From contig OZ025249.1 of NCBI GenBank assembly GCA_964019135.1, positions 15,649,088 to 15,713,087 of the forward strand: DNA of 64,000 nt, given 5' to 3'. This document shows, piece after piece, positions 747 through 47,239 of this stretch. The position numbers and the translations under genes are program-made. Each line of letters begins with the position of its first letter. Positions within the stretch are counted from its first letter, which is position 1. This stretch comes from Arenicola marina (lineage: Eukaryota > Annelida > Polychaeta > Arenicolidae). The notes below the pieces were generated by a model. That model searched no databases. It was not told where the DNA came from and was given only the letters and a program-made list of their open reading frames with translations.

Positions 747-756
747 GGAATAGAAA

Positions 757-765: not shown

Positions 766-785
766 AAAGATTGTTCACAGAAAAC

Positions 786-3800: not shown

Positions 3801-6800
3801 CTGGTTGAGCTGGTCCGACGAGGTCAGCTCGAAGATCTGCGTGTCTGCGAGACGTCCGCATCGCTGAACGACAACATAATATTACATCTCTTACAAGGGG
3901 TGTGTGATGAACACATTATGTGAGTAATTGATGCATTTCTTTTTTTTATTCTGTCTTTACGTGTGGTTATTTTTGCTTTGCGGTAACTGGTGTCTTAGTC
4001 CCTCGTGTTAGTAACTTTGCTACACATAATCGACAACAATACTCCTCATTACAGTTATGTGCACCTCTTAGCGTAGCAATGAGACAAATCCACAAATTAC
4101 GTTTATGAATATGTAAGAGATACAATTTAAGGATAACAAAAATGGATAAGCATATAGATTTAAGCATATGAAAAGGAATAAGGATATAGATCTAGGCATA
4201 TAAAAATGGATAAGGATATAGATCTAAGCATATAAAATTGGATAAGGATATGTGGTCTAAGCTATCTAAGATTCCTGTAACCATAGTACAGCGACGTTGT
4301 GTATATGTTTGTTTGCCTAATACGATAACATAACTACATTTGTACAAAATTTCTTCAACCCTAATGTCTTGCTGATGTTATCATGTCTTTTTTTTCAGGC
4401 CAACGATGAAACGGCTGGAGTTTCAAATGCTTGATCTGGCAGCGGCAGGTGCCTTGCCTGAAGTACAGGAAATACCAGTCGGTAAGGCCCGTTTAAATCG
4501 CTCGTCGTACGTACTGCTTCAGCTGCAAATGATGATGGATTTATTGCAAGGACTCTATAAACTTAATATTTTCACAGGTTGCAAAAAAAATATTCACTGG
4601 CAGCAGACTAACACTGCTGTGTGTTTTATTCTGCAGGGAGGTGCAGTGTGGTCGACGAACTGGAGGAGTTGAGTCTGATGCTACCCCAGGGCTCGGAGAC
4701 TATCCTCAGGAGCTGCGTCCGTCACGTGATCCAGCGGCGCAAATGTCGTCTGCGGCGCCTCGTGGTCCGATTCGATGACCTGGTGCCTGGTGTCACACTG
4801 GTGCTTCAAGACGCCTTGACGGGTAGGTTTGAGGCGGTCACCGACTGTATGGTGCAACAGCCAACACTGGTGCTTCAAGACGCCTTGACGGGTAGGTTTG
4901 AGGCGGTCACCGACTGTATGGTGCCACAGCCCACACTGGTGCTTTAAGACGCTTTGATGGGTAGGTTTGAGGCGGTCACCGACTGTATGGTGCCACAGCC
5001 CACACTGGTGCTTTAAGACGCTTTGATGGGTAGGTTTGAGGCGGTCACCGACTGTATGGTGCCACAGCCCACACTGGTGCTTTAAGACGCTTTGATGGGT
5101 AGGTTTGAGGCGGTCACCGATAGTATGGTGCCACACCCCACACTGGTGCTTTAAGACGCCTTGACGGGTAGGTTTGAGGCGGTCACCGACTGTATGGTGC
5201 CACAGCCCACACTGGTGCTTCAAGACGCCTTGACGGGTAGGTTTGAGGCGGTCACCGACTGTATGGTGCCACAGCCAACACTGGTGCTTCAAGACGCCTT
5301 GACGGGTACGTTTGAGGCGGTCACCGACTGTATGGTGCAACAGCCAACACTGGTGCTTCAAGACGCCTTGACGGGTAGGTTTGAGGCGGTCACCGACTGT
5401 ATGGTGCCACAGCCCACACTGGTGCTTTAAGACGCTTTGATGGGTAGGTTTGAGGCGGTCACCGACTGTATGGTGCCACAGCCCACACTGGTGCTTTAAG
5501 ACGCTTTGATGGGTAGGTTTGAGGCGGTCACCGACTGTATGGTGCCACAGCCCACACTGGTGCTTTAAGACGCTTTGATGGGTAGGTTTGAGGCGGTCAC
5601 CGACTGTATGGTGCCACAGCCCACACTGGTGCTTTAAGACGCCTTGACGGGTAGGTTTGAGGCGGTCACCGACTGTATGGTGCCACAGCCCACACTGGTG
5701 CTTCAAGACGCCTTGACGGGTAGGTTTGAGGCGGTCACCGACTGTATGGTGCCACAGCCCACACTGGTGCTTCAAGACGCCTTGACGGGTAGGTTTGAGG
5801 CGGTCACCGACTGTATGGTGCCACAGCCAACACTGGTGCTTCAAGGCGCCTTGACGGGTAGGTTTGAGGCGGTCACCGACTGTATGGTGCCACAGCCAAC
5901 ACTGGTGCTTCAAGGCGCCTTGACGGGTAGGTTTGAGGCGGTCACCGACTGTATGGTGCCACAGCCAACACTGGTGCTTCAAGACGCCTTGACGGGTAGG
6001 TTTGAGGCGGTCACCGACTGTATGGTGCCACAGCCCACACTGGTGCTTCAAGGCGCCTTGATGGGTAGGTTTGAGGCGGTCACCGACTGTATGGTGCCAC
6101 AGCCCACACTGGTGCTTTAAGACGCTTTGACGGGTAGGTTTGAGGCGGTCACCGACTGTATGGTGCCACAGCCCACACTGGTGCTTCAAGGCGCCTTGAT
6201 GGGTAGGTTTGAGGCGGTCACCGACTGTATGGTGCCACAGCCAACACTGGTGCTTCAAGGCGCCTTGACGGGTAGGTTTGAGGCGGTCACCGACTGTATG
6301 GTGCCACAGCCAACACTGGTGCTTCAAGGCGCCTTGACGGGTAGGTTTGAGGCGGTCACCGACTGTATGGTGCCACAGCCCACACTGGTGCTTCAAGGCG
6401 CCTTGACGGGTAGGTTTGAGGCGGTCACCGACTGTATGGTGCCACAGCCCACACTGGTGCTTCAAGGCGCCCTGACGGGTAGGTTTGAGGCGGTCACCGA
6501 CTGTATGGTGCCACAGCCCACACTGGTGCTTTAAGACGCCTTGACGGGTAGGTTTGAGGCGGTCACCGACTGTATGGTGCCACAGCCCACACTGGTGCTT
6601 CAAGGCGCCTTGACGGGTAGGTTTGAGGCGGTCACCGACTGTATGGTGCCACAGCCCACACTGGTGCTTCAAGACGCCTTGACGGGTAGGTTCGAGGCGG
6701 TCACCGACTGTATGGTGCCACAGCCCACACTGGTGCTTTAAGACGCCTTGACGGGTAGGTTTGAGGCGGTCACCGACTGTATGGTGCCACAGCCCACACT

Positions 6801-9800
6801 GGTGCTTCAAGGCGCCTTGACGGGTAGGTTTGAGGCGGTCACCGACTGTATGGTGCCACAGCCAACACTGGTGCTTTAAGACGCCTTGACGGGTAGGTTT
6901 GAGGCGGTCACCGACTGTATGGTGCCACAGCCAACACTGGTGCTTCAAGGCGCCTTGACGGGTAGGTTTGAGGCGGTCACCGACTGTATGGTGCCACAGC
7001 CCACACTGGTGCTTCAAGACGCCTTGACGGGTAGGTTTGAGGCGGTCACCGACTGTATGGTGCCACAGCCCACACTGGTGCTTTAAGACGCCTTGACGGG
7101 TAGGTTTGAGGCGGTCACCGACTGTATGGTGCAACAGCCCACACTGGTGCTTCAAGGCGCTTTGACGGGTAGGTTTGAGGCGGTCACCGACTGTATGGTG
7201 CCACAGCCAACACTAGTGCTTCAAGGCGCCTTGACGGGTAGGTTTGAGGCGGTCACCGACTGTATGGTGCCACAGCCAACACTGGTGCTTCAAGGCGCCT
7301 TGACGGGTAGGTTTGAGGCGGTCACCGACTGTATGGTGCAACAGCCCACACTGGTGCTTTAAGACGCTTTGATGGGTAGGTTTGAGGCGGTCACCGACTG
7401 TATGGTGCCACAGCCAACACTGGTGCTTCAAGGCGCCTTGACGGGTAGGTTTGAGGCGGTCACCGACTGTATGGTGCAACAGCCCACACTGGTGCTTTAA
7501 GACGCTTTGATGGGTAGGTTTGAGGCGGTCACCGACTGTATGGTGCCACAGCCAACACTGGTGCTTCAAGGCGCCTTGACGGGTAGGTTTGAGGCGGTCA
7601 CCGACTGTATGGTGCCACAGCCAACACTGGTGCTTCAAGACGCCTTGACGGGTAGGTTTGAGGCGGTCACCGACTGTATGGTGCCACAGCCAACACTGGT
7701 GCTTCAAGGCGCCTTGACGGGTAGGTTTGAGGCGGTCACCGACTGTATGGTGCCACAGCCCACACTGGTGCTTTAAGACGCTTTGATGGGTAGGTTTGAG
7801 GCGGTCACCGACTGTATGGTGCCACAGCCAACACTGGTGCTTCAAGACGCCTTGACGGGTAGGTTTGAGGCGGTCACCGACTGTATGGTGCCACAGCCCA
7901 CACTGGTGCTTTAAGACGCTTTGATGGGTAGGTTTGAGGCGGTCACCGACTGTATGGTGCCACAGCCCACACTGGTGCTTTAAGACGCTTTGATGGGTAG
8001 GTTTGAGGCGGTCACCGACTGTATGGTGCCACAGCCAACACTGGTGCTTTAAGACGCCTTGACGGGTAGGTTTGAGGCGGTCACCGACTGTATGGTGCCA
8101 CAGCCCACACTGGTGCTTCAAGACGCCTTGACGGGTAGGTTTGAGGCGGTCACCGACTGTATAGTGCCACAGCCCACACTGGTGCTTCAAGGCGCCTTGA
8201 TGGGTAGGTTTGAGGCGGTCACCGACTGTATGGTGCCACAGCCCACACTGGTGCTTTAAGACGCTTTGATGGGTAGGTTTGAGGCGGTCACCGACTGTAT
8301 GGTGCCACAGCCCACACTGGTGCTTTAAGACGCTTTGATGGGTAGGTTTGAGACGGTCACCGACTGTATGGTGCCACAGCCCACACTGGTGCTTTAAGAC
8401 GCTTTGATGGGTAGGTTTGAGGCGGTCACCGACTGTATGGTGCCACAGCCCACACTGGTGCTTTAAGACGCCTTGACGGGTAGGTTTGAGGCGGTCACCG
8501 ACTGTATTGTGCCACAGCCCACACTGGTGCTTCAAGACGCCTTGACGGGTAGGTTTGAGGCGGTCACCGACTGTATGGTGCCACAGCCAACACTGATGCT
8601 TCAAGACGCCTTGACGGGTAGGTTTGAGGCGGTCACCGACTGTATGGTGCCACAGCCCACACTGGTGCTTCAAGGCGCCTTGATGGGTAGGTTTGAGGCG
8701 GTCACCGACTGTATGGTGCCACAGCCCACACTGGTGCTTTAAGACGCTTTGACGGGTAGGTTTGAGGCGGTCACCGACTGTATGGTGCCACAGCCCACAC
8801 TGGTGCTTCAAGGCGCCTTGATGGGTAGGTTTGAGGCGGTCACCGACTGTATGGTGCCACAGCCAACACTGGTGCTTCAAGGCGCCTTGACGGGTAGGTT
8901 TGAGGCGGTCACCGACTGTATGGTGCCACAGCCAACACTGGTGCTTCAAGGCGCCTTGACGGGTAGGTTTGAGGCGGTCACCGACTGTATGGTGCCACAG
9001 CCAACACTGGTGCTTCAAGGCGCCTTGACGGCTAGGTTTGAGGCGGTCACCGACTGTATGGTGCAACAGCCCACACTGGTGCTTTAAGACGCTTTGACGG
9101 GTAGGTCTGAGGCGGTCACCGACTGTATGGTGCCACAGCCCACACTGGTGCTTCAAGACGCCTTGACGGGTAGGTTTGAGGCGGTCACCGACTGTATGGT
9201 GCCACAGCCAACACTGGTGCTTCAAGGCGCCTTGACGGGTAGGTTTGAGGCGGTCACCGACTGTATGGTGCAACAGCCCACACTGGTGCTTTAAGACGCT
9301 TTGATGAGTAGGTTTGAGGCGGTCACCGACTGTATGGTGCCACAGCCAACACTGGTGCTTCAAGGCGCCTTGACGGGTAGGTTTGAGGCGGTCACCGACT
9401 GTATGGTGCCACAGCCCACACTGGTGCTTTAAGACGCTTTGATGGGTAGGTTTGAGGCGGTCACCGACTGTATGGTGCCACAGCCAACACTGGTGCTTTA
9501 AGGCGCCTTGACGGGTAGGTTTGAGGCGGTCACCGACTGTATGGTGCCACAGCCCACACTGGTGCTTTAAGACGCTTTGATGGGTAGGTTTGAGGCGGTC
9601 ACCGACTGTATGGTGCCACAGCCCACACTGGTGCTTCAAGGCGCCTTGACGGGTAGGTTTGAGGCGGTCACCGACTGTATGGTGCCACAGCCCACACTGG
9701 TGCTTCAAGGCGCCTTGACGGGTAGGTTTGAGGCGGTCACCGACTGTATGGTGCCACAGCCAACACTGGTGCTTTAAGGCGCCTTGACGGGTAGGTTTGA

Positions 9801-27800: not shown

Positions 27801-30800
27801 GGTAGGTTTGAGGCGGTCACCGACTGTATGGTGCCACAGCCCACACTGGTGCTTTAAGACGCCTTGACGGGTAGGTTTGAGGCGGTCACCGACTGTATGG
27901 TGCCACAGCCAACACTGGTGCTTTAAGACGCCTTGATGGGTAGGTTTGAGGCGGTCACCGACTGTATGGTGCCACAGCCAACACTGGTGCTTTAAGACGC
28001 CTTGACGGGTAGGTTTGAGGCGGTCACCGACTGTATGGTGCCACAGCCCACACTGGTGCTTTAAGACGCTTTGATGGGTAGGTTTGAGGCGGTCACCGAC
28101 TGTATGGTGCCACAGCCAACACTGGTGCTTTAAGACGCCTTGATGGGTAGGTTTGAGGCGGTCACCGACTGTATGGTGCCACAGCCCACACTGGTGCTTT
28201 AAGACGCTTTGATGGGTAGGTTTGAGGCGGTCACCGACTGTATGGTGCCACAGCCAACACTGGTGCTTTAAGACGCCTTGACGGGTAGGTTTGAGGCGGT
28301 CACCGACTGTATGGTGCCACAGCCCACACTGGTGCTTCAAGACGCCTTGATGGGTAGGTTTGAGGCGGTCACCGACTGTATGGTGCCACAGCCCACACTG
28401 GTGCTTCAAGGCGCCTTGACGGGTAGGTATGAGGCGGTCACCGACTGTATGGTGCCACAGCCAACACTGGTGCTTTAAGACGCCTTGACGGGTAGGTTTG
28501 AGGCGGTCACCGACTGTATGGTGCCACAGCCCACACTGGTGCTTTAAGACGCCTTAACGGGTAGGTTTGAGGCGGTCACCGACTGTATGGTGCCACAGCC
28601 CACACTGGTGCTTTAAGACGCTTTGACGGGTAGGTTTGAGGCGGTCACCGACTGTATGGTGCCACAGCCCACACTGGTGCTTTAAGACGCCTTGATGGGT
28701 AGGTTTGAGGCGGTCACCGACTGTATGGTGCCACAGCCCACACTGGTGCTTTAAGACGCCTTGACGGGTAGGTTTGAGGCGGTCACCGACTGTATGGTGC
28801 CACAGCCAACACTGGTGCTTTAAGACGCCTTGACGGGTAGGTTTGAGGCGGTCACCGACTGTATGGTGCCACAGCCCACACTGGTGCTTTAAGACGCCTT
28901 GATGGGTAGGTTTGAGGCGGTCACCGACTGTATGGTGCCACAGCCAACACTGGTGCTTCAAGGCGCCTTGACGGGTAGGTTTGAGGCGGTCACCGACTGT
29001 ATGGTGCCACAGCCCACACTGGTGCTTCAAGGCGCCTTGACGGGTAGGTTTGAGGCGGTCACCGACTATATGGTGCAACAGCCCACACTGGTGCTTTAAG
29101 ACGCCTTGATGGGTAGGTTTGAGGCGGTCACCGACTGTATGGTGCCACAGCCCACACTGGTGCTTTAAGACGCTTTGATGGGTAGGTTTGAGGCGGTCAC
29201 CGACTGTATGGTGCCACAGCCAACACTGGTGCTTCAAGACGCCTTGACGGGTAGGTTTGAGGCGGTCACCGACTGTATGGTGCCACAGCCCACACTGGTG
29301 CTTTAAGACGCTTTGATGGGTAGGTTTGAGGCGGTCACCGACTGTATGGTGCCACAGCCCACACTGGTGCTTTAAGACGCATTGACGGGTAGGTTTGAGG
29401 CGGTCACCGACTGTATGGTGCCACAGCCAACACTGGTGCTTTAAGACGCCTTGACGGGTAGGTTTGAGGCGGTCACCGACTGTATGGTGCCACAGCCCAC
29501 ACTGGTGCTTCAAGACGCTTTGATGGGTAGGTTTGAGGCGGTCACCGACTGTATGGTGCCACAGCCCACACTGGTGCTTTAAGACGCCTTGACGGGTAGG
29601 TTTGAGGCGGTCACCGACTGTATGGTGCCACAGCCCACACTGGTGCTTTAAGACGCTTTGATGGGTAGGTTTGAGGCGGTCACCGACTGTATGGTGCCAC
29701 AGCCAACACTGGTGCTTCAAGACGCCTTGACGGGTAGGTTTGAGGCGGTCACCGACTGTATGGTGCCACAGCCCACACTGGTGCTTTAAGACGCTTTGAT
29801 GGGTAGGTTTGAGGCGGTCACCGACTGTATGGTGCCACAGCCAACACTGGTGCTTCAAGACGCCTTGACGGGTAGGTTTGAGGCGGTCACCGACTGTATG
29901 GTGCCACAGCCCACACTGGTGCTTCAAGGCGCCTTGACGGGTAGGTTTGAGGCGGTCACCGACTGTATGGTGCCACAGCCTACACTGGTGCTTTAAGACG
30001 CATTGACGGGTAGGTTTGAGGCGGTCACCGACTGTATGGTGCCACAGCCAACACTGGTGCTTTAAGACGCCTTGACGGGTAGGTTTGAGGCGGTCACCGA
30101 CTGTATGGTGCCACAGCCCACACTGGTGCTTCAAGACGCTTTGATGGGTAGGTTTGAGGCGGTCACCGACTGTATGGTGCCACAGCCCACACTGGTGCTT
30201 TAAGACGCCTTGACGGGTAGGTTTGAGGCGGTCACCGACTGTATGGTGCCACAGCCCACACTGGTGCTTTAAGACGCCTTGACGGGTAGGTTTGAGGCGG
30301 TCACCGACTGTATGGTGCCACAGCCAACACTGGTGCTTTAAGACGCCTGGATGGGTAGGTTTGAGGCGGTCACCGACTGTATGGTGCCACAGCCCACACT
30401 GGTGCTTTAAGACGCCTGGATGGGTAGGTTTGAGGCGGTCACCGACTGTATGGTGCCACAGCCCACACTGGTGCTTTAAGACGCCTGGATGGGTAGGTTT
30501 GAGGCGGTCACCGACTGTATGGTGCCACAGCCAACACTGGTGCTTTAAGACGCCTTGACGGGTAGGTTTGAGGCGGTCACCGACTGTATGGTGCCACAGC
30601 CAACACTGGTGCTTTAAGACGCTTTGATGGGTAGGTATGAGGCGGTCACTGACTGTATGGTGCCACAGCCAACACTGGTGCTTTAAGACGCCTTGACGGG
30701 TAGGTTTGAGGCGGTCACCGACTGTATGGTGCCACAGCCCACACTGGTGCTTCAAGGCGCCTTGACGGGTAGGTTTGAGGCGGTCAGCGACTGTATGGTG

Positions 30801-33800
30801 CCACAGCCCACACTGGTGCTTTAAGACGCCTTGACGGGTAGGTTTGAGGCGGTCACCGACTGTATGGTGCCACAGCCAACACTGGTGCTTCAAGACGCCT
30901 TGACGGGTAGGTTTGAGGCGGTCACCGACTGTATGGTGCCACAGCCAACACTGGTGCTTTAAGACGCCTTGACGGGTAGGTTTGAGGCGGTCACCGACTG
31001 TATGGTGCCACAGTCAACACTGGTGCTTTAAGACGCCTTGACGGGTAGGTTTGAGGCGGTCACCGACTGTATGGTGCCACAGCCCACACTGGTGCTTTAA
31101 GACGCCTTGACGGGTAGGTTTGAGGCGGTCACCGACTGTATGGTGCCACAGCCAACACTGGTGCTTTAAGACGACTTGACGGGTAGGTTTGAGGCGGTCA
31201 CCGACTGTATGGTGCCACAGTCCACACTGGTGCTTTAAGACGCCTTGACGGGTAGGTTTGAGGCGGTCACCGACTGTATGGTGCCACAGCCCACACTGGT
31301 GCTTTAAGACGCCTTGACGGGTAGGTTTGAGGCGGTCACCGACTGTATGGTGCCACAGCCCACACTGATGCTTCAAGACGCCTTGACGGGTAGGTTTGAG
31401 GCGGTCAGCGACTGTATGGTGCCACAGCCAACACTGGTGCTTCAAGGCGCCTTGACGGGTAGGTTTGATGCGGTCACCGACTGTATGGTGCCATAGCCCA
31501 CACTGATGCTTCAAGACGCCTTGACGGGTAGGTTTGAGGCGGTCAGCGACTGTATGGTGCCACAGCCAACACTGGTGCTTCAAGGCGCCTTGACGGGTAG
31601 GTTTGAGGCGGTCACCGACTGTATGGTGCCACAGCCCACACTGGTGCTTCAAGACGCCTTGACGGGTAGGTTTGATGCGGTCACCGACTGTATGGTGCCA
31701 CAGCCAACACTGATGCTTCAAGACGCCTTGACGGGTAGGTTTGAGGCGGTCACCGACTGTATGGTGCCACAGCCCACACTGGTGCTTTAAGACGCCTTGA
31801 CGGGTAGGTTTGAGGCGGTCACCGACTGTATGGTGCCACAGCCAACACTGGTGCTTTAAGACGCCTTGACGGGTAGGTTTGAGGCGGTCACCGACTGTAT
31901 GGTGCCACAGCCAACACTGGTGCTTTAAGACGCCTGGATGGGTAGGTTTGAGGCGGTCACCGACTGTATGGTGCCACAGCCCACACTGGTGCTTCAAGGC
32001 GCCTTGACGGGTAGGTTTGAGGCGGTCACCGACTGTATGGTGCCACAGCCCACACTGGTGCTTTAAGACGCCTTGACGGGTAGGTTTGAGGCGGTCACCG
32101 ACTGTATGGTGCCACAGCCAACACTGGTGCTTTAAGACGCCTTGACGGGTAGGTTTGAGGCGGTCACCGACTGTATGGTGCCACAGCCAACACTGGTGCT
32201 TTAAGACGCCTTGACGGGTAGGTTTGAGGCGGTCACCGACTGTATGGTGCCACAGCCAACACTGGTGCTTTAAGACGCCTTGACGGGTAGGTTTGAGGCG
32301 GTCACCGACTGTATGGTGCCACAGCCCACACTGGTGCTTCAAGGCGCCTTGACGGGTAGGTTTGAGGCGGTCACCGACTGTATGGTGCCACAGTCCACAC
32401 TGGTGCTTTAAGACGCCTTGACGGGTAGGTTTGAGGCGGTCACCGACTGTATGGTGCCACAGCCAACACTGGTGCTTTAAGACGCCTTGACGGGTAGGTT
32501 TGAGGCGGTCACCGACTGTATGGTGCCACAGCCCACACTGGTGCTTCAAGGCGCCTTGACGGGTAGGTTTGAGGCGGTCACCGACTGTATGGTGCCACAG
32601 CCAACACTGGTGCTTCAAGGCGCCTTGACGGGTAGGTTTGAGGCGGTCACCGACTGTATGGTGCCACAGCCAACACTGGTGCTTTAAGACGCCTTGACGG
32701 GTAGGTTTGAGGCGGTCACCGACTGTATGGTGCCACAGCCAACACTGGTGCTTTAAGACGCCTTGACGGGTAGGTTTGAGGCGGTCACCGACTGTATGGT
32801 GCCACAGCCCACACTGGTGCTTCAAGGCGCCTTGACGGGTAGGTTTGAGGCGGTCACCGACTGTATGGTGCCACAGTCCACACTGGTGCTTTAAGACGCC
32901 TTGACGGGTAGGTTTGAGGCGGTCACCGACTGTATGGTGCCACAGCCAACACTGGTGCTTTAAGACGCCTTGACGGGTAGGTTTGAGGCGGTCACCGACT
33001 GTATGGTGCCACAGCCCACACTGGTGCTTTAAGACGCTTTGACGGGTAGGTATGAGGCGGTCACCGACTGTATGGTGCCACAGCCAACACTGGTGCTTTA
33101 AGACGCCTTGACGGGTAGGTCTGAGGCGGTCACCGACTGTATGGTGCCACAGCCAACACTGGTGCTTTAAGACGCCTTGACGGGTAGGTCTGAGGCGGTC
33201 ACCGACTGTATGGTGCCACAGCCAACACTGGTGCTTCAAGACGCCTTGACGGGTAGGTCTGAGGCGGTCACCGACTGTATGGTGCCACAGCCCACACTGG
33301 TGCTTTAAGACGCCTTGACGGGTAGGTTTGAGGCGGTCACCGACTGTATGGTGCCACAGCCAACACTGGTGCTTTAAGACGCCTTGACGGGTAGGTCTGA
33401 GGCGGTCACCGACTGTATGGTGCCACAGCCAACACTGGTGCTTTAAGACGCTTTGATGGGTAGGTTTGAGGCGGTCACCGACTGTATGGTGCCACAGCCC
33501 ACACTGGTGCTTTAAGACGCTTTGATGGGTAGGTTTGAGGCGGTCACCGACTGTATGGTGCCACAGCCAACACTGGTGCTTTAAGACGCTTTGATGGGTA
33601 GGTTTGAGGCGGTCACCGACTGTATGGTGCCACAGTCCACACTGGTGCTTTAAGACGCCTTGACGGGTAGGTTTGAGGCGGTCACCGACTGTATGGTGCC
33701 ACAGTCCACACTGGTACTTTAAGACGCCTTGACGGGTAGGTTTGAGGCGGTCACCGACTGTATGGTGCCACAGTCCACACTGGTGCTTTAAGACGCCTTG

Positions 33801-36800
33801 ACGGGTAGGTTTGAGGCGGTCACCGGCTGTATGGTGCCACAGCCAACACTGGTGCTTTAAGACGCCTTGACGGGTAGGTTTGAGGCGGTCACCGACTGTA
33901 TGGTGCCACAGTCCACACTGGTGCTTTAAGACGCCTTGACGGGTAGGTTTGAGGCGGTCACCGACTGTATGGTGCCACAGCCAACACTGGTGCTTTAAGA
34001 CGCCTTGACGGGTAGGTTTGAGGCGGTCACCGACTGTATGGTGCCACAGCCAACACTGGTGCTTTAAGACGCTTTGATGGGTAGGTTTGAGGCGGTCACC
34101 GACTGTATGGTGCCACAGCCAACACTGGTGCTTTAAGACGCTTTGATGGGTAGGTCTGAGGCGGTCACCGACTGTATGGTGCCACAGCCAACACTGGTGC
34201 TTTAAGACGCCTTGACGGGTAGGTTTGAGGCGGTCACCGACTGTATGGTGCCACAGCCAACACTGGTGCTTTAAGACGCCTTGATGGGTAGGTTTGAGGC
34301 GGTCACCGACTGTATGGTGCCACAGCCAACACTGGTGCTTTAAGACGCCTTGACGGGTAGGTTTGAGGCGGTCACCGACTGTATGGTGCCACAGCCAACA
34401 CTGGTGCTTTAAGACGCTTTGATGGGTAGGTTTGAGGCGGTCACCGACTGTATGGTGCCACAGCCAACACTGGTGCTTTAAGACGCTTTGATGGGTAGGT
34501 CTGAGGCGGTCACCGACTGTATGGTGCCACAGCCAACACTGGTGCTTTAAGACGCCTTGACGGGTAGGTTTGAGGCGGTCACCGACTGTATGGTGCCACA
34601 GCCAACACTGGTGCTTCAAGACGCCTTGACGGGTAGGTTTGAGGCGGTCACCGACTGTATGGTGCCACAGCCAACACTGGTGCTTTAAGACGCCTTGACG
34701 GGTAGGTTTGAGGCGGTCACCGACTGTATGGTGCCACAGCCCACACTGGTGCTTTAAGACGCCTTGACGGGTAGGTTTGAGGCGGTCACCGACTGTATGG
34801 TGCCATAGCCAACACTGGTGCTTTAAGACGCCTTGATGGGTAGGTTTGAGGCGGTCACCGACTGTATGGTGCCACAGCCAACACTGGTGCTTTAAGACGC
34901 CTTGACGGGTAGGTTTGAGGCGGTCACCGACTGTATGGTGCCACAGCCCACACTGGTGCTTTAAGACGCTTTGATGGGTAGGTTTGAGGCGGTCACCGAC
35001 TGTATGGTGCCACAGCCAACACTGGTGCTTTAAGACGCCTTGATGGGTAGGTTTGAGGCGGTCACCGACTGTATGGTGCCACAGCCCACACTGGTGCTTT
35101 AAGACGCTTTGATGGGTAGGTTTGAGGCGGTCACCGACTGTATGGTGCCACAGCCCACACTGGTGCTTTAAGACGCCTTGACGGGTAGGTTTGAGGCGGT
35201 CACCGACTGTATGGTGCCACAGCCCACACTGGTGCTTCAAGACGCCTTGATGGGTAGGTTTGAGGCGGTCACCGACTGTATGGTGCCACAGCCCACACTG
35301 GTGCTTCAAGGCGCCTTGACGGGTAGGTATGAGGCGGTCACCGACTGTATGGTGCCACAGCCAACACTGGTGCTTTAAGACGCCTTGACGGGTAGGTTTG
35401 AGGCGGTCACCGACTGTATGGTGCCACAGCCCACACTGGTGCTTTAAGACGCCTTGACGGGTAGGTTTGAGGCGGTCACCGACTGTATGGTGCCACAGCC
35501 CACACTGGTGCTTCAAGGCGCCTTGACGGGTAGGTTTGAGGCGGTCACCGACTGTATGGTGCCACAGCCAACACTGGTGCTTCAAGGCGCCTTGACGGGT
35601 AGGTTTGAGGCGGTCACCGACTGTATGGTGCCACAGCCAACACTGGTGCTTTAAGACGCCTTGACGGGTAGGTTTGAGGCGGTCACCGACTGTATGGTGC
35701 CACAGCCCACACTGGTGCTTTAAGACGCCTTGACGGGTAGGTTTGAGGCGGTCACCGACTGTATGGTGCCACAGCCAACACTGGTGCTTCAAGGCGCCTT
35801 GACGGGTAGGTTTGAGGCGGTCACCGACTGTATGGTGCCACAGCCCACACTGGTGCTTCAAGACGCTTTGATGGGTAGGTTTGAGGCGGTCACCGACTGT
35901 ATGGTGCCACAGCCCACACTGGTGCTTTAAGACGCCTTGACGGGTAGGTTTGAGGCGGTCACCGACTGTATGGTGCCACAGCCCACACTGGTGCTTTAAG
36001 ACGCTTTGATGGGTAGGTTTGAGGCGGTCACCGACTGTATGGTGCCACAGCCAACACTGGTGCTTCAAGACGCCTTGACGGGTAGGTTTGAGGCGGTCAC
36101 CGACTGTATGGTGCCACAGCCCACACTGGTGCTTTAAGACGCTTTGATGGGTAGGTTTGAGGCGGTCACCGACTGTATGGTGCCACAGCCAACACTGGTG
36201 CTTCAAGACGCCTTGACGGGTAGGTTTGAGGCGGTCACCGACTGTATGGTGCCACAGCCCACACTGGTGCTTCAAGGCGCCTTGACGGGTAGGTTTGAGG
36301 CGGTCACCGACTGTATGGTGCCACAGCCTACACTGGTGCTTTAAGACGCATTGACGGGTAGGTTTGAGGCGGTCACCGACTGTATGGTGCCACAGCCAAC
36401 ACTGGTGCTTTAAGACGCCTTGACGGGTAGGTTTGAGGCGGTCACCGACTGTATGGTGCCACAGCCCACACTGGTGCTTCAAGACGCTTTGATGGGTAGG
36501 TTTGAGGCGGTCACCGACTGTATGGTGCCACAGCCCACACTGGTGCTTTAAGACGCCTTGACGGGTAGGTTTGAGGCGGTCACCGACTGTATGGTGCCAC
36601 AGCCCACACTGGTGCTTTAAGACGCCTTGACGGGTAGGTTTGAGGCGGTCACCGACTGTATGGTGCCACAGCCAACACTGGTGCTTTAAGACGCCTGGAT
36701 GGGTAGGTTTGAGGCGGTCACCGACTGTATGGTGCCACAGCCCACACTGGTGCTTTAAGACGCCTGGATGGGTAGGTTTGAGGCGGTCACCGACTGTATG

Positions 36801-39800
36801 GTGCCACAGCCCACACTGGTGCTTTAAGACGCCTGGATGGGTAGGTTTGAGGCGGTCACCGACTGTATGGTGCCACAGCCAACACTGGTGCTTTAAGACG
36901 CCTTGACGGGTAGGTTTGAGGCGGTCACCGACTGTATGGTGCCACAGCCAACACTGGTGCTTTAAGACGCTTTGATGGGTAGGTATGAGGCGGTCACTGA
37001 CTGTATGGTGCCACAGCCAACACTGGTGCTTTAAGACGCCTTGACGGGTAGGTTTGAGGCGGTCACCGACTGTATGGTGCCACAGCCCACACTGGTGCTT
37101 CAAGGCGCCTTGACGGGTAGGTTTGAGGCGGTCAGCGACTGTATGGTGCCACAGCCCACACTGGTGCTTTAAGACGCCTTGACGGGTAGGTTTGAGGCGG
37201 TCACCGACTGTATGGTGCCACAGCCAACACTGGTGCTTCAAGACGCCTTGACGGGTAGGTTTGAGGCGGTCACCGACTGTATGGTGCCACAGCCAACACT
37301 GGTGCTTTAAGACGCCTTGACGGGTAGGTTTGAGGCGGTCACCGACTGTATGGTGCCACAGTCAACACTGGTGCTTTAAGACGCCTTGACGGGTAGGTTT
37401 GAGGCGGTCACCGACTGTATGGTGCCACAGCCCACACTGGTGCTTTAAGACGCCTTGACGGGTAGGTTTGAGGCGGTCACCGACTGTATGGTGCCACAGC
37501 CAACACTGGTGCTTTAAGACGACTTGACGGGTAGGTTTGAGGCGGTCACCGACTGTATGGTGCCACAGTCCACACTGGTGCTTTAAGACGCCTTGACGGG
37601 TAGGTTTGAGGCGGTCACCGACTGTATGGTGCCACAGCCCACACTGGTGCTTTAAGACGCCTTGACGGGTAGGTTTGAGGCGGTCACCGACTGTATGGTG
37701 CCACAGCCCACACTGATGCTTCAAGACGCCTTGACGGGTAGGTTTGAGGCGGTCAGCGACTGTATGGTGCCACAGCCAACACTGGTGCTTCAAGGCGCCT
37801 TGACGGGTAGGTTTGATGCGGTCACCGACTGTATGGTGCCATAGCCCACACTGATGCTTCAAGACGCCTTGACGGGTAGGTTTGAGGCGGTCAGCGACTG
37901 TATGGTGCCACAGCCAACACTGGTGCTTCAAGGCGCCTTGACGGGTAGGTTTGAGGCGGTCACCGACTGTATGGTGCCACAGCCCACACTGGTGCTTCAA
38001 GACGCCTTGACGGGTAGGTTTGATGCGGTCACCGACTGTATGGTGCCACAGCCAACACTGATGCTTCAAGACGCCTTGACGGGTAGGTTTGAGGCGGTCA
38101 CCGACTGTATGGTGCCACAGCCCACACTGGTGCTTTAAGACGCCTTGACGGGTAGGTTTGAGGCGGTCACCGACTGTATGGTGCCACAGCCAACACTGGT
38201 GCTTTAAGACGCCTTGACGGGTAGGTTTGAGGCGGTCACCGACTGTATGGTGCCACAGCCAACACTGGTGCTTTAAGACGCCTGGATGGGTAGGTTTGAG
38301 GCGGTCACCGACTGTATGGTGCCACAGCCCACACTGGTGCTTCAAGGCGCCTTGACGGGTAGGTTTGAGGCGGTCACCGACTGTATGGTGCCACAGCCCA
38401 CACTGGTGCTTTAAGACGCCTTGACGGGTAGGTTTGAGGCGGTCACCGACTGTATGGTGCCACAGCCAACACTGGTGCTTTAAGACGCCTTGACGGGTAG
38501 GTTTGAGGCGGTCACCGACTGTATGGTGCCACAGCCAACACTGGTGCTTTAAGACGCCTTGACGGGTAGGTTTGAGGCGGTCACCGACTGTATGGTGCCA
38601 CAGCCAACACTGGTGCTTTAAGACGCCTTGACGGGTAGGTTTGAGGCGGTCACCGACTGTATGGTGCCACAGCCCACACTGGTGCTTCAAGGCGCCTTGA
38701 CGGGTAGGTTTGAGGCGGTCACCGACTGTATGGTGCCACAGTCCACACTGGTGCTTTAAGACGCCTTGACGGGTAGGTTTGAGGCGGTCACCGACTGTAT
38801 GGTGCCACAGCCAACACTGGTGCTTTAAGACGCCTTGACGGGTAGGTTTGAGGCGGTCACCGACTGTATGGTGCCACAGCCCACACTGGTGCTTCAAGGC
38901 GCCTTGACGGGTAGGTTTGAGGCGGTCACCGACTGTATGGTGCCACAGCCAACACTGGTGCTTCAAGGCGCCTTGACGGGTAGGTTTGAGGCGGTCACCG
39001 ACTGTATGGTGCCACAGCCAACACTGGTGCTTTAAGACGCCTTGACGGGTAGGTTTGAGGCGGTCACCGACTGTATGGTGCCACAGCCAACACTGGTGCT
39101 TTAAGACGCCTTGACGGGTAGGTTTGAGGCGGTCACCGACTGTATGGTGCCACAGCCCACACTGGTGCTTCAAGGCGCCTTGACGGGTAGGTTTGAGGCG
39201 GTCACCGACTGTATGGTGCCACAGTCCACACTGGTGCTTTAAGACGCCTTGACGGGTAGGTTTGAGGCGGTCACCGACTGTATGGTGCCACAGCCAACAC
39301 TGGTGCTTTAAGACGCCTTGACGGGTAGGTTTGAGGCGGTCACCGACTGTATGGTGCCACAGCCCACACTGGTGCTTTAAGACGCTTTGACGGGTAGGTA
39401 TGAGGCGGTCACCGACTGTATGGTGCCACAGCCAACACTGGTGCTTTAAGACGCCTTGACGGGTAGGTCTGAGGCGGTCACCGACTGTATGGTGCCACAG
39501 CCAACACTGGTGCTTTAAGACGCCTTGACGGGTAGGTCTGAGGCGGTCACCGACTGTATGGTGCCACAGCCAACACTGGTGCTTCAAGACGCCTTGACGG
39601 GTAGGTCTGAGGCGGTCACCGACTGTATGGTGCCACAGCCCACACTGGTGCTTTAAGACGCCTTGACGGGTAGGTTTGAGGCGGTCACCGACTGTATGGT
39701 GCCACAGCCAACACTGGTGCTTTAAGACGCCTTGACGGGTAGGTCTGAGGCGGTCACCGACTGTATGGTGCCACAGCCAACACTGGTGCTTTAAGACGCT

Positions 39801-42800
39801 TTGATGGGTAGGTTTGAGGCGGTCACCGACTGTATGGTGCCACAGCCCACACTGGTGCTTTAAGACGCTTTGATGGGTAGGTTTGAGGCGGTCACCGACT
39901 GTATGGTGCCACAGCCAACACTGGTGCTTTAAGACGCTTTGATGGGTAGGTTTGAGGCGGTCACCGACTGTATGGTGCCACAGTCCACACTGGTGCTTTA
40001 AGACGCCTTGACGGGTAGGTTTGAGGCGGTCACCGACTGTATGGTGCCACAGTCCACACTGGTACTTTAAGACGCCTTGACGGGTAGGTTTGAGGCGGTC
40101 ACCGACTGTATGGTGCCACAGTCCACACTGGTGCTTTAAGACGCCTTGACGGGTAGGTTTGAGGCGGTCACCGGCTGTATGGTGCCACAGCCAACACTGG
40201 TGCTTTAAGACGCCTTGACGGGTAGGTTTGAGGCGGTCACCGACTGTATGGTGCCACAGTCCACACTGGTGCTTTAAGACGCCTTGACGGGTAGGTTTGA
40301 GGCGGTCACCGACTGTATGGTGCCACAGCCAACACTGGTGCTTTAAGACGCCTTGACGGGTAGGTTTGAGGCGGTCACCGACTGTATGGTGCCACAGCCA
40401 ACACTGGTGCTTTAAGACGCTTTGATGGGTAGGTTTGAGGCGGTCACCGACTGTATGGTGCCACAGCCAACACTGGTGCTTTAAGACGCTTTGATGGGTA
40501 GGTCTGAGGCGGTCACCGACTGTATGGTGCCACAGCCAACACTGGTGCTTTAAGACGCCTTGACGGGTAGGTTTGAGGCGGTCACCGACTGTATGGTGCC
40601 ACAGCCAACACTGGTGCTTTAAGACGCCTTGATGGGTAGGTTTGAGGCGGTCACCGACTGTATGGTGCCACAGCCAACACTGGTGCTTTAAGACGCCTTG
40701 ACGGGTAGGTTTGAGGCGGTCACCGACTGTATGGTGCCACAGCCAACACTGGTGCTTTAAGACGCTTTGATGGGTAGGTTTGAGGCGGTCACCGACTGTA
40801 TGGTGCCACAGCCAACACTGGTGCTTTAAGACGCTTTGATGGGTAGGTCTGAGGCGGTCACCGACTGTATGGTGCCACAGCCAACACTGGTGCTTTAAGA
40901 CGCCTTGACGGGTAGGTTTGAGGCGGTCACCGACTGTATGGTGCCACAGCCAACACTGGTGCTTCAAGACGCCTTGACGGGTAGGTTTGAGGCGGTCACC
41001 GACTGTATGGTGCCACAGCCAACACTGGTGCTTTAAGACGCCTTGACGGGTAGGTTTGAGGCGGTCACCGACTGTATGGTGCCACAGCCCACACTGGTGC
41101 TTTAAGACGCCTTGACGGGTAGGTTTGAGGCGGTCACCGACTGTATGGTGCCATAGCCAACACTGGTGCTTTAAGACGCCTTGATGGGTAGGTTTGAGGC
41201 GGTCACCGACTGTATGGTGCCACAGCCAACACTGGTGCTTTAAGACGCCTTGACGGGTAGGTTTGAGGCGGTCACCGACTGTATGGTGCCACAGCCCACA
41301 CTGGTGCTTTAAGACGCTTTGATGGGTAGGTTTGAGGCGGTCACCGACTGTATGGTGCCACAGCCAACACTGGTGCTTTAAGACGCCTTGATGGGTAGGT
41401 TTGAGGCGGTCACCGACTGTATGGTGCCACAGCCCACACTGGTGCTTTAAGACGCTTTGATGGGTAGGTTTGAGGCGGTCACCGACTGTATGGTGCCACA
41501 GCCCACACTGGTGCTTTAAGACGCCTTGACGGGTAGGTTTGAGGCGGTCACCGACTGTATGGTGCCACAGCCCACACTGGTGCTTCAAGACGCCTTGATG
41601 GGTAGGTTTGAGGCGGTCACCGACTGTATGGTGCCACAGCCCACACTGGTGCTTCAAGGCGCCTTGACGGGTAGGTATGAGGCGGTCACCGACTGTATGG
41701 TGCCACAGCCAACACTGGTGCTTTAAGACGCCTTGACGGGTAGGTTTGAGGCGGTCACCGACTGTATGGTGCCACAGCCCACACTGGTGCTTTAAGACGC
41801 CTTGACGGGTAGGTTTGAGGCGGTCACCGACTGTATGGTGCCACAGCCCACACTGGTGCTTCAAGGCGCCTTGACGGGTAGGTTTGAGGCGGTCACCGAC
41901 TGTATGGTGCCACAGCCAACACTGGTGCTTCAAGGCGCCTTGACGGGTAGGTTTGAGGCGGTCACCGACTGTATGGTGCCACAGCCAACACTGGTGCTTT
42001 AAGACGCCTTGACGGGTAGGTTTGAGGCGGTCACCGACTGTATGGTGCCACAGCCCACACTGGTGCTTTAAGACGCCTTGACGGGTAGGTTTGAGGCGGT
42101 CACCGACTGTATGGTGCCACAGCCAACACTGGTGCTTCAAGGCGCCTTGACGGGTAGGTTTGAGGCGGTCACCGACTGTATGGTGCCACAGCCAACACTG
42201 GTGCTTCAAGACGCCTTGAAGGGTAGGTTTGAGGCGGTCACCGACTGTATGGTGCCACAGCCCACACTGGTGCTTTAAGACGCTTTGACGGGTAGGTTTG
42301 AGGCGGTCACCGACTGTATGGTGCCACAGCCCACACTGGTGCTTTAAGACGCCTTGATGGGTAGGTTTGAGGCGGTCACCGACTGTATGGTGCCACAGCC
42401 CACACTGGTGCTTTAAGACGCCTTGACGGGTAGGTTTGAGGCGGTCACCGACTGTATGGTGCCACAGCCAACACTGGTGCTTTAAGACGCCTTGACGGGT
42501 AGGTTTGAGGCGGTCACCGACTGTATGGTGCCACAGCCAACACTGGTGCTTTAAGACGCTTTGATGGGTAGGTTTGAGGCGGTCACCGAATGTATGGTGC
42601 CACAGCCAACACTGGTGCTTTAAGACGCTTTGATGGGTAGGTCTGAGGCGGTCACCGACTGTATGGTGCCACAGCCAACACTGGTGCTTTAAGACGCCTT
42701 GACGGGTAGGTCTGAGGCGGTCACCGACTGTATGGTGCCACAGCCCACACTGGTGCTTTAAGACGCCTTGACGGGTAGGTTTGAGGCGGTCACCGACTGT

Positions 42801-44468
42801 ATGGTGCCACAGCCCACACTGGTGCTTCAAGGCGCCTTGACGGGTAGGTTTGAGGCGGTCACCGACTGTATGGTGCCACAGCCCACACTGGTGCTTTAAG
42901 ACGCCTTGACGGGTAGGTTTGAGGCGGTCACCGACTGTATGGTGCCACAGCCAACACTGGTGCTTCATCTTATCTTATCTAGGAGATTCAAACAGGGTTT
43001 TTTTTTTCTGAAATTAATCTTCCACCTTTTATTGCGAATATGTCGACTATATACGTTGACATCCGTACATACCAATGTTAAGTAGACCCGCGTGTTTGCC
43101 CTGTTATTCAGGTACGAACTGCAGTCTGTCGGGATCTCTACGTCACTTATTCCTGGAGAAGCATCGGCCGCTGTCGGCTGAAGCTATCGCCAACCTGCCC
43201 TGTCTGGAGACACTCACTCTGAAGCACTGCTGCATGGGAAGCCTCACCGGTGTGGATATTCATGCTACAGAAATATTCCAATTCTCTCTTTGAAGCTAGT
43301 ATGAGGCATTGCGTCTTGCTACCTTAACCCTCACCAATGCCTAATATAGCAATATAGGTCAAAGTAATAAGACATTTGATCTCACTTTATCGCGGATTAC
43401 GCTTTGGCATTTCTTACCCATCAAAATTGAATAATTGATTTTGTTCTCTGTCTTAGATAAAGAATTCCGGACCTTTACAGATACGTGCACCAACCATCCC
43501 CGGCTTAGGGAATTGGGCCTGGATTACAACAACCTTGGTGAGCGCTTCTTGCCGTGTATATAGTATATACAAGTATTGTATAATATGTTTATATTTTATT
43601 CCCAACGTAATTAATGTATTTGAAGATTTGATCGTAATAATTGTTAGATTTTTAATCATATAATTGTTATAATATAATTGTTAGATTTTTAATCATATAA
43701 TTGTAATTTTTTTAATCATATAATTGTTAGATTTTTAATCATATAATTGTTAGATTTTTAATCATATAATTGTTAGATTTTTAATCATAAAATTGTTATA
43801 GTTTTAATCATATAATTGTTATATTTTTCAGGATGTGAAAAAGGGTGCTATCTGTTAAGTTCACTGATGACGTCAGATGACGCGCGAGTCAAAGTCTTGA
43901 ATTTAGGGTGAGGGCCATTTGGATGCTCGAATCCAATAGTTACATAGTTTGCCTTTAACATAGATTCAACAGTGAGTACCAGTCCCATTACTGAACCACA
44001 TATTCTGTAAATGTATAAGCACATTGCTAATAATAATTTTACGAACCGAATATCGTATGTTTCTGTGTGGAAATATAACGAAATAAGCTCTTTATGAACT
44101 ACAGCTAGGCGGGCTATAGTCGTGTGAAGTATCAACGACTGAAGTGGCTTACGACCTGGAAACCATCCAACCGCTGAACCGCGTCATTGTTCTTAATGAA
44201 CCGTCGTTGTTGCAGGTGGAATGCCATCAGGGGACGATCGCTGCTGGCCCTCTGTCACACCCTGTGGGGTAAGGGAGCCGCACGGGGTGAGGAGGGGTGC
44301 ACGACAAGCAGCACGTGGGGCACCCCTGGCAGGGAGACGCTGGTCATCAGCGGAAATAAACTGCGCGATGAACGCCGGGAACTCCTCGGGTACTTCTCGA
44401 GGTTCTTCGGCCAGGTGCACGCCGGTGTGGTAGACTTGCTCATGGCGGACCACATCTCACTGATGTAG
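786..44468 (+). CDS. LRRC41: LRRC41-like elongin-BC-box leucine-rich-repeat protein (10 coding exons)
   Basis: Exons joined: 786-870, 1708-1794, 2130-2360 (end uncertain), 2773-3919, 4399-4481, 4637-4822, 43112-43249, 43457-43537, 43832-43907, 44216-44468. The sum is 2,367 nt, or 788 residues plus TAG, close to the roughly 810 residues of vertebrate LRRC41. All junctions are GT-AG and phases match throughout (mostly phase 1). Residues 6-15, SLYHLCLQCV, fit the elongin BC box (S/T/P)LxxxCxxx(hydrophobic). Exon 2 starts with LPTC where vertebrates have the cullin-5-type LPxP, so the last proline is missing. An LRR-like stretch around residues 220-290 is followed by a charged, low-complexity linker (about 290-410, with KQKRKGPR as a possible nuclear signal) and further LRRs to about 730. 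The family is a substrate receptor in an elongin BC/cullin ubiquitin ligase. The assignment rests on remembered family features and needs an alignment. Confidence 0.8.
1440..1560 (+). repeat. imperfect direct repeat, probable mobile-element remnant
   Basis: GAGGCCAAAGTCTGGGTGCGG near 1443 recurs as GAGGCCAAAGTTGGGGTGCGG near 1521, each followed by CTTATAATATGTA or CTTCTAATATGTA. The element lies in intron 1 and is preceded by runs of G at 1417-1440. The phrase GGGTGCGGCTTATAAT resembles ends of dispersed elements seen in many animal genomes; this is recalled, not checked. Confidence 0.4.
1708..1794 (+). CDS. LRRC41: LRRC41 exon 2 (cullin-box region)
   Basis: Acceptor CATATTTTTAG (AG at 1706-1707), donor GCAG|gtaaca at 1795. 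It encodes LPTCIKRHLAKYISAKQLFR and onward, helical and basic. The spacing to the BC box and the pattern LP..I...L..Y....L.R.E match the human region starting LPGPILQS, which supports orthology. Phase 1 at both ends. Confidence 0.8.
2130..2360 (+). CDS. LRRC41: LRRC41 exon 3
   Basis: Acceptor TCTATTTAG (AG at 2128-2129). The frame reads DVDLAFLWRSHFVARWPHSY and continues with a tyrosine- and glutamine-rich stretch, as in the LW.....F segment after the cullin box of the family. The end is uncertain. CAG|gtaaaa at 2361 is the strongest donor, but GT at 2304 and GT at 2316 give the same phase and would remove the poly-T-encoded phenylalanine run, giving 769 or 773 residues in total. Confidence 0.65.
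2773..3919 (+). CDS. LRRC41: LRRC41 exon 4 (long central exon)
   Basis: Acceptor TGTCATTCAG (AG at 2771-2772), donor ATTAT|gtgagt at 3920, phase 1 in and phase 2 out. It first encodes an acidic stretch (LMEMDEEEPQ). An LRR-like helix-strand region with L..LS.S and V.QLEVHASDL follows at 3030-3240. Next is a glycine/aspartate-rich linker coded by repeated GGC/GAC (about 3280-3420) and a basic patch KQKRKGPR (3500-3525). LRR sequence resumes (ELKRLFIAVD, QLEDLRVCE). The 5' half is much more CpG- and GC-rich than the flanking introns. Confidence 0.8.
4138..4264 (+). repeat. about 32-bp AT-rich tandem repeat, 4 copies, in intron 4
   Basis: GGATAAGCATATAG, GGAATAAGGATATAG, GGATAAGGATATAG and GGATAAGGATATGT occur at about 32-bp steps (4144, 4175, 4208, 4240), each followed by a variant of ATCTAAGCATAT. 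It is a small diverged minisatellite, unrelated in sequence to the 69-bp array. Confidence 0.75.
4399..4481 (+). CDS. LRRC41: LRRC41 exon 5
   Basis: Acceptor poly-T then CAG (AG at 4397-4398), donor GTCG|gtaagg at 4482. The split codon with exon 4 gives methionine, then PTMKRLEFQMLDLAAAGALP and onward, an LRR-like KRLEFQMLDL segment. Phase 2 in, phase 1 out. Confidence 0.75.
4637..4822 (+). CDS. LRRC41: LRRC41 exon 6, whose last 28 nt are the first 28 nt of the 69-bp array
   Basis: Acceptor TTTTATTCTGCAG (AG at 4635-4636). It encodes GRCSVVDELEELSLMLPQG, then CRLRRLVVRFDDL (an LRR; human has CRLRALHLSDL) and TLVLQDALTG. The terminal ACGG|GTAGGT at 4819-4828 is the donor. Joining to exon 7 gives a glycine codon and continues the LRR pattern. 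The unit that is then repeated 553 times starts at 4795, inside this exon. The frame stays open into units 1 and 2 and stops at TAA (4945-4947) in unit 3. Confidence 0.8.
10950..15620 (+). repeat. higher-order block 1 of the 69-bp array (about 68 units)
   Basis: Rare variants CCCACAGTGG (11004), CCGACACTGG (11071), GATGCTTCAAG with GGTCTGAGG (11220-11250), GCGATCACC (12356) and CACATCCCACACTGATG (14172) recur in the same order in the next block, 4.7-5.1 kb downstream. Offsets change from 68 to 72 to 74 to 70 units, so small blocks of about four units were gained or lost after the duplication. The boundaries are where the matching stops, accurate to about one unit. Confidence 0.75.
15621..20450 (+). 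repeat. higher-order block 2, tandem copy of 10950-15620
   Basis: It carries the same rare variants as block 1 (CCCACAGTGG at 15696, GCGATCACC at 17462, CACATCCCACACTGATG at 19002). For most of its second half the offset is exactly 4,830 bp (70 units). The single-base insertion near 12206 is not shared, so it arose after the duplication or was lost by conversion. Confidence 0.75.
24500..28900 (+). repeat. three tandem 20-24-unit subblocks within the 69-bp array
   Basis: The variant GGTCTGAGG occurs at 24560 and 25940, and as GGTCTTGAGG at 27598, each followed by nearly the same order of unit types. Spacing is 1,380 bp (20 units) and then 1,657 bp (24 units plus one base). The CTTCAAGACGCCTTGATGGG then GGTATGAGG signature repeats at 25300, 26956 and 28337. 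This is a local triplication with small differences in length. Confidence 0.65.
29450..35797 (+). repeat. higher-order block A, 92 units (6,348 bp)
   Basis: Block A is followed directly by a near-identical copy offset by exactly 6,348 bp (92 x 69). Shared rare variants include CCATAGCC (31491, 34804), the three GCCTGGATGGG units (30346-30490), CACCGGCTG (33822) and CACTGGTACTTT (33712). Matching fails upstream of about 29450. Much of the block also matches 21.3-25.4 kb at offsets of 131 to 144 units (plus one base), so it is itself an older copy. Confidence 0.8.
35798..42145 (+). repeat. higher-order block B, tandem copy of block A
   Basis: The same variants recur 6,348 bp downstream of block A: CCATAGCC at 37839 and 41152, CACCGGCTG at 40170, CACTGGTACTTT at 40060. 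Very few single-base differences are visible between the copies, pointing to a recent unequal exchange or replication slippage of a 92-unit block. The match ends near 42145-42200, where unit types change. Confidence 0.8.
42968..43111 (+). other. unique end of the array-bearing intron and acceptor of exon 7
   Basis: The array stops at 42967. After it come TCTTATCTTATCTAGG, a poly-T run and ordinary intron sequence, leading to the acceptor CCCTGTTATTCAG (AG at 43110-43111). The intron as drawn is 38.3 kb (4823-43111), of which all but about 140 bases is minisatellite. Confidence 0.8.
43112..43249 (+). CDS. LRRC41: LRRC41 exon 7 (LRR)
   Basis: It encodes TNCSLSGSLRHLFLEKHRPL and then NLPCLETLTLKHCC, two LRR strands (LRHLFLE, LETLTLKHC). 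Phase 1 in, and the donor ACCG|gtgtgg at 43250 is phase 1 out, a weaker donor than the others. The frame fits both exon 6 and exon 8, which confirms that the 38-kb array lies within one gene. Confidence 0.8.
43457..43537 (+). CDS. LRRC41: LRRC41 exon 8 (LRR)
   Basis: Acceptor TTCTCTGTCTTAG, donor CTTG|gtgagc at 43538. It encodes DKEFRTFTDTCTNHPRLREL followed by GLDYNNLG, a canonical LRR (LRELGLDYNNLG) equal in position to LKGLRLPGNRLG of the human protein. Phase 1 at both ends. Confidence 0.85.
43628..43828 (+). repeat. 23-bp AT-rich tandem repeat, about 8 copies, in intron 8
   Basis: The unit is TTAGATTTTTAATCATATAA plus TTG, repeated with small length changes from about 43640 up to the branch and pyrimidine region of exon 9 (acceptor TATTTTTCAG at 43830-43831). 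Its closeness to the acceptor means copy number sets the branch-site to acceptor geometry. Confidence 0.8.
43832..43907 (+). CDS. LRRC41: LRRC41 exon 9 (LRR)
   Basis: It encodes GCEKGCYLLSSLMTSDDARV then KVLNLG, the next LRR. Donor TTAGG|gtgagg at 43908, phase 2. The exon is short (76 nt), as expected for a single repeat segment. Confidence 0.75.
44216..44468 (+). CDS. LRRC41: LRRC41 exon 10 (C terminus and stop)
   Basis: Acceptor CGTTGTTGCAG (AG at 44214-44215), phase 2. It encodes WNAIRGRSLLALCHTLWG, a glycine-rich insert, then ETLVISGNKLRDERRELLGY and ending MADHISLM before TAG at 44466-44468. The helical tail and the -STM/-SLM ending resemble vertebrate LRRC41. The final codons are the founder of the 30-bp minisatellite. 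Confidence 0.8.
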
Positions 44469-45441: not shown

Positions 45442-45467
45442 CATATAGATGCAATACAATCATATAG
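44469..45467 (+). other. in-frame open extension behind the LRRC41 UAG (possible readthrough)
   Basis: The LRRC41 frame continues 332 codons past TAG (44466-44468) before the next stop, TAG at 45465-45467. It encodes about 32 basic decapeptides of type NGRSHRADVT. The stop context is UAG CUA; a CUA after the stop is known to favour readthrough, best documented for UGA. The extra G in the founder copy is what places the array in an open frame. This is an open possibility, not a called protein. Confidence 0.3.
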
Positions 45468-45479
45468 ATTGTATTGCAT
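45449..45479. repeat. 13-bp perfect hairpin just after the 30-bp array
   Basis: ATGCAATACAATC (45449-45461) and GATTGTATTGCAT (45467-45479) pair exactly around loop ATATA. It sits 8 bp after the last minisatellite copy, in the presumed LRRC41 3' UTR, so it may be an RNA stem. It may also mark the point where array growth stopped. Confidence 0.8.
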
Positions 45480-45703
45480 TATGAACATGCCATACTAATG
45501 ACTGGGGCAAGACTGCGAATTTTCTGTGTATAAGCACCCTAACAGGTATTCCATGTGAGCTTTATCGTACTTACCGCTACCGTCATTCGCCTAGGCCACT
45601 ATAGTACGGATGTACCACGGGACATGGGACCAAGATGACACTGTTTTAGTGAATGCTAAACGCATATATGTGCCTTCTCTATTGCATTCTAGTCCTATTT
45701 ATG

Positions 45704-47060: not shown

Positions 47061-47069
47061 TAGCTAATA

Positions 47070-47235: not shown

Positions 47236-47239
47236 TATT

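Follow-up and report, generated by a model that had tools for sequence, protein, structure and literature searches.

Between positions 786 and 44468 of the window, a stretch of 64,000 nucleotides from the annelid Arenicola marina (contig OZ025249.1), lies a gene for which we obtained a ten-exon model that encodes 769 amino acids without an internal stop, with GT-AG borders at all nine introns (9/9) and matching phases. Exons were placed by eye and then checked by script for GT-AG borders and an open frame. Their numbering assumes that the start is the ATG at 786, and exons upstream of that ATG are possible. The end of exon 6 lies within a 69-bp minisatellite that accounts for 38,144 of the 38,289 bp of intron 6; the remaining eight introns measure 155-837 bp. 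The features of this region are as follows (a slash marks an exon-intron border).

4637-4822, plus strand: exon 6 of the LRRC41-like gene in the ten-exon model, the last 29 nt of which (4794-4822) form the exonic portion of array unit 1.
4794-42966, plus strand: the 69-bp minisatellite, delimited by TRF and unit segmentation.
4820-4828, plus strand: donor 1, the authentic donor of exon 6 (CGG/GTAGGT), with a U1 duplex of -11.1 kcal/mol.
4823-43111, plus strand: intron 6 of the model, 38,289 bp, 99.6% array; it would be 199 bp with one copy of the unit.
4892-4897, plus strand: donor 2, use of which would insert 23 amino acids in frame with no stop, from reading the frame.
29498-42193, plus strand: two identical 92-unit (6,348-bp) blocks (29498-35845 and 35846-42193), from unit comparison.
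42913-42918, plus strand: the final donor of the array, at 199 nt from the acceptor of exon 7.
43112-43249, plus strand: exon 7 of the model, acceptor TTATTCAG/GTA, in a phase matching exon 6.

Exons 6 and 7 meet in phase 1 and the joined frame stays open. This in-phase junction within one open frame supports the proposal of the initial annotation that the two exons are joined across the array, and they are thus predicted to belong to one transcript. The gene name LRRC41, which we take from the same annotation, is likely to be correct. A Pfam search of the 769-residue protein returned leucine-rich-repeat matches, all under the curated cut-offs, and a PDB search returned two weak matches, one of them named leucine-rich repeat protein. 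MUF1/LRRC41 is described as a leucine-rich-repeat protein that binds Elongin BC (PMC4812663), and the N-terminus of our protein carries a BC-box-like motif, SLYHLCLQCV; the BC-box pattern, however, matches the protein twice, against 0.24 matches expected from shuffles. None of 7,999 candidates scored was a homolog of the protein at E 0.001. A comparison of its first 115 amino acids with bacterial, archaeal and viral contigs gave 82 pattern matches and no relative, and a 27-base part of the repeat unit had no exact match in viral contigs, both of which are weak results given their taxon scope.

Unit segmentation divides the array into 553 full units and a 14-nt stub, with 551 units of 69 bp and two of 70 bp, whereas TRF alone gives 553.2 copies at 96% matches over 4794-42965. 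The whole array comprises 85 distinct unit sequences. In the 551 units of 69 bp, variant copies number at least 10 at ten positions, and the remaining positions are near-invariant, the donor being one such stretch among others. Each full unit consists of 29 nt from the end of exon 6 followed by 40 nt of intron that start at the donor; this exonic part is 29 nt by the TRF limits and 28 nt by the start given in the initial annotation. The sequence GGGTAGGT, which contains the donor, is kept in 549/553 units. It is found 549 times on the plus strand of the window, always within the array, and 0 times on the minus strand, and 543 of the 548 neighboring pairs are spaced by exactly 69. The four units that lack it (8, 62, 66 and 108) are all among the first 108 of the 553. 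The array that had been described, 38 kb long with some 550 copies of a donor, is therefore borne out, with start and end each displaced by one base (4794-42966 rather than 4795-42967), as is the near-universal retention of a donor one base from GTAAGT, the sole difference being at +4. Its proposed origin at an exon-intron junction is likewise supported, since unit 1 comprises the 29 coding bases that end exon 6, together with their donor.

Two readings of the array as coding sequence were considered and rejected. The unit length of 69 is divisible by three, and 201/551 of the 69-bp units are open in the exon frame, but TAA is present in 349/553 units and the extended exon is therefore not kept open. 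On the minus strand, a giant open frame (4681-42974, up to 3,273 amino acids) runs antisense to the array, but nothing else supports a gene there; such open frames arise because the unit equals 23 codons and its consensus is stop-free in one antisense frame, and a unit of 23 codons has a fair chance of some stop-free frame. At the level of RNA structure, the predicted folding of two units was not superior to that of shuffled sequences (z 0.35).

Minisatellites that extend across exon-intron boundaries have been described in amphioxus under the name of mirages, a term coined for cephalochordates (PMC3087553, PMC3902484), where the loci reported include Adh3, the globins BflGb6 and BflGb9, troponin C and PGBD5. 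The Arenicola array shares with these both a unit that spans the boundary (29 nt of exon and 40 nt of intron) and the presence of the splice signal in the copies (549/553 units), but its 553 units over 38 kb compare with roughly 2-7 units in the amphioxus globin and PGBD5 mirages. In the BflGb6 mirage, edge units are reported to escape homogenization, a feature typical of tandem-repeat turnover that is not part of the definition of a mirage. Here the edge units are not clearly more divergent, with 0-5 differences from the consensus in the first six and 0-4 in the last six, and mean differences per 50 units are 1.7-2.5.

A second precedent is the VNTR in intron 18 of human ABCA7, which starts with the donor of exon 18, allowing a donor in every unit, and has a 25-bp unit in about 12 to 427 units (PMC5954066). 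As in ABCA7, the canonical donor of the exon lies inside the array, here with donor 1 at 4823 within unit 1. The ABCA7 unit, however, is intronic and its 25 bp are not a multiple of three, whereas the unit here has 69 bp, or 23 codons, of which 29 bases are exonic, and the largest ABCA7 allele reported is 10.7 kb against 38.2 kb here. The claim that no locus of this sort had been described was thus wrong, as the lancelet mirages and the ABCA7 VNTR are of the same kind. Other known systems are less close. Fission yeasts provide a case in which intron arose from a 24-bp AGGT segment that had been repeated (PMC4974935); the Rogers model of intron gain by tandem AGGT duplication resembles the present case in that splice signals are copied by tandem duplication, but in that model duplication yields a new intron, while here an existing intron was lengthened by a unit that lacks a good acceptor. 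In human segmental duplications, variable internal tandem repeats at exon-intron boundaries can alter splicing, but these average four copies of 30-bp units with novel introns as the outcome (PMC2812944), unlike the 553 units of 69 bp here. In the literature surveyed we found no boundary-spanning array of this size, which is no proof of its absence from print. The locus is real, unusual in scale and of a known kind.

Units of the array recur in blocks. Its longest exact runs of repeated units cover 92, 25, 15 and 14 units, compared with 3-5 in five shuffles, and the longest corresponds to units 359-450 and 451-542, which are identical with zero mismatches; the match at lag 6,348 extends, mismatch-free, over 6,399 bp. 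The block holds 32 unit types, seven of which are confined to its two copies. This 92-unit doubling could be either a very recent duplication or a duplication made in assembly. If the latter, the array would be real but shorter, its copy number being inflated by the error, and such inflation would be compatible with the other explanations considered below. The length of the perfect match and the seven unit types private to the two copies would fit an assembly error, and one lancelet globin mirage was apparently misassembled in a genome draft, according to the report on mirages (PMC3087553, PMC3902484). Nevertheless, 461 units are left even without one block, smaller exact block repeats (of up to 25 units) are also present, as expected from real turnover, and the sole N run of the window sits outside the array, so that we consider inflation by assembly doubtful, if worth keeping in mind. 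For the one haplotype available, the internal block repeats fit an array that may be unstable in length.

Three further minisatellites lie within or at the end of the gene.

4138-4251, plus strand: a 32-bp minisatellite in intron 4 with no gene signal inside (TRF).
43672-43828, plus strand: a 23-bp minisatellite reaching the acceptor region of exon 9 (TRF).
44448-45442, plus strand: a 30-bp minisatellite of 33 copies (TRF).

The polypyrimidine tract of exon 9 looks derived from the 23-bp repeat. The first copy of the 30-bp minisatellite overlaps the last codons and the stop codon (44466-44468) of the LRRC41-like gene, which makes it a second array grown from a signal of this gene. Three of the gene's four arrays touch either a donor, an acceptor (taken as -20 to +3) or the stop codon, for which random placement gives about 2%; with the acceptor taken as -3 to +3, two of the four do so and random placement gives about 11%. 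As the question was chosen after seeing the data, these figures are only a hint that arrays are preferentially seeded at gene signals. Elsewhere in the window, a 31-bp minisatellite at 61160-61460 has 9.7 copies and a 93-bp higher-order period, and a run of 200 N at 52137-52336, downstream of the gene, is an assembly gap.

We calculated the pairing of each donor with the 5' end of U1. The array donor CGG/GTAGGT forms a duplex of -11.1 kcal/mol, compared with -4.1 to -9.5 kcal/mol for the eight other donors of the gene, and none of 816 GT sites in the surrounding sequence (1-4700 and 43113-52000) is as strong. Because the array donor is the strongest by this measure, each intact unit is a strong predicted U1 site. 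The array might be functional, with its donors kept for U1 binding so as to form a sponge, to guard against premature polyadenylation or to serve in recursive splicing. Retention of the 8-mer in 549/553 units would agree with such a role, as would the count of variant copies, for which the donor window is the lowest of 69, albeit narrowly (3, with the next windows at 4, 5 and 6). Distinct variant alleles, on the other hand, are not markedly few at the donor: its eight positions (28-35) hold three of the 49 in the unit, against an expectation of 5.7 at the average rate across the unit, and equally low numbers occur in 10 of the 69 windows of eight bases. Near-invariance, moreover, extends over most of the unit. 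Judged from these counts, conservation of the donor does not clearly exceed the level set by homogenization, which probably explains it; any hint of constraint is a weak one.

The specific functions fare no better. A recursive splice site combines an acceptor-like AG and its pyrimidine tract with a GT directly after the AG, and no acceptor-like AG is present within the unit. The 23 nt that precede each of its four AGs contain 5-7 T, compared with 9-16 for the nine real acceptors of the gene, although pyrimidine fraction separates the two groups less well (0.50-0.60 versus 0.55-0.85). An AG followed by GT does occur in the unit, TAG/GTTTGA, but it has 7 T in the preceding 23 nt and a pyrimidine fraction of 0.50 and does not qualify, so the recursive-splicing substrate suggested in the initial annotation is not supported. 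The array lacks AATAAA, ATTAAA, AGTAAA and TATAAA, leaving no such polyadenylation signal for U1 to suppress. For the U1 sponge suggested in the same place we found no positive support beyond the presence of the sites, and about 549 sites per transcript are few relative to cellular U1, of which a human cell contains about a million copies. Taken together, retention of the donors for any such function is very improbable.

How a transcript with some 550 near-identical donors might be spliced can be approached from competing donors in human genes (PMC9225289). Between near-equal donors, the choice is reported to follow proximity on the intron side when introns are short and on the exon side when they are long, with the upstream preference heightened by a short upstream and a long downstream intron; two identical strong 5' splice sites under exon definition led to exclusive use of the upstream one in five minigenes. 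The transition from intron to exon definition lies at about 250 nt, a threshold that, like the proximity rule, derives from human data and designer minigenes. The same study reports that, among events not yet filtered for equal strength, each of the four intron classes showed a preference for the downstream donor (about 60% of events overall), that exon skipping resulted in the two larger minigenes when the identical donors were weakened, and that exon definition is also possible for exons between short introns. With intron 5 at 155 bp and intron 6 at 38 kb, exon 6 falls into the short-long class. Since so long an intron 6 forces exon definition, donor 1 is the probable winner. All donors are preceded by 29 nt that derive from the same exon end and differ at few positions, so that local sequence separates donor 1 from the others poorly and distance or time of synthesis must decide.

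We favor, as the probable though by no means certain explanation, a neutral minisatellite of the mirage type that has reached an extreme size. A tandem duplication across the junction of exon 6 and intron 6 would have been the starting event, followed by expansion and homogenization to 553 units, presumably via unequal exchange, with the splice donor carried along without selection for it. With one copy of the unit, the 199-bp intron would have been in the intron-definition range, in which a downstream donor is favored. Once the intron had grown beyond about 250 nt, exon 6, with its upstream intron of 155 bp, would have become exon-defined and the upstream of two equal donors would be favored, such that growth of the array would itself protect correct splicing. 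On this gene structure, the transcript is likely still to be spliced mostly from donor 1. Donor 2 might be used at a low level, as its 23 additional residues are stop-free in the exon frame. TAA first appears in unit 3, which imposes a premature stop on every later donor, and transcripts from donors 3 and later would be removed by nonsense-mediated decay.

Alternatively, the array might be a burden on splicing, with internal donors competing, units being retained, a stop being read and the transcript decaying, so that array length would set gene expression as in ABCA7. The array donor is the strongest U1 match of the gene, an in-frame TAA is reached from donors 3 and later, and the length of the ABCA7 VNTR is associated with lower expression and skipping of exon 19, with an isoform that retains a single unit also known (PMC5954066). 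Retention of that unit was reported to be unchanged by length, however, and the exclusive upstream use of identical strong donors in exon-defined minigenes (PMC9225289) likewise argues against competition, as do the accounts of mirages, which report them without disturbance of splicing (PMC3087553, PMC3902484). We regard such a burden as unlikely, more so than inflation by assembly. Even so, by analogy with ABCA7, in which reduced expression and more frequent skipping of the following exon accompany long arrays, a neutral effect of the array is not assured, and the drag on splicing of exon 6 to exon 7 proposed in the initial annotation is possible given the sequence. The obvious threat to donor 1 is the last donor, which with the exon 7 acceptor makes a 199-nt pair that could be used by intron definition.

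The mirage-type reading with splicing mainly from donor 1 leads to a broader suggestion, which we offer tentatively and at less than even confidence: minisatellites at exon-intron boundaries may protect themselves. Past the limit of intron definition the upstream donor would win, so that growth would be unlimited and hundreds of donors tolerated; only the first few units would be dangerous, and here they may have been survived because 69 bp are 23 open codons. If true, this would account for the escape of splice-boundary minisatellites from selection and for the growth of an intron of 200 bp into one of 38 kb.

The locus thus offers a natural experiment on the choice of 5' splice sites, in which about 550 near-identical donors, each preceded by nearly the same 29 nt, share one upstream and one downstream acceptor and differ almost solely in distance. 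If donor 1 wins, cross-exon distance or the order of transcription must decide, and the main interest of the array lies in this test of how one donor is selected among some 550 near-equals.
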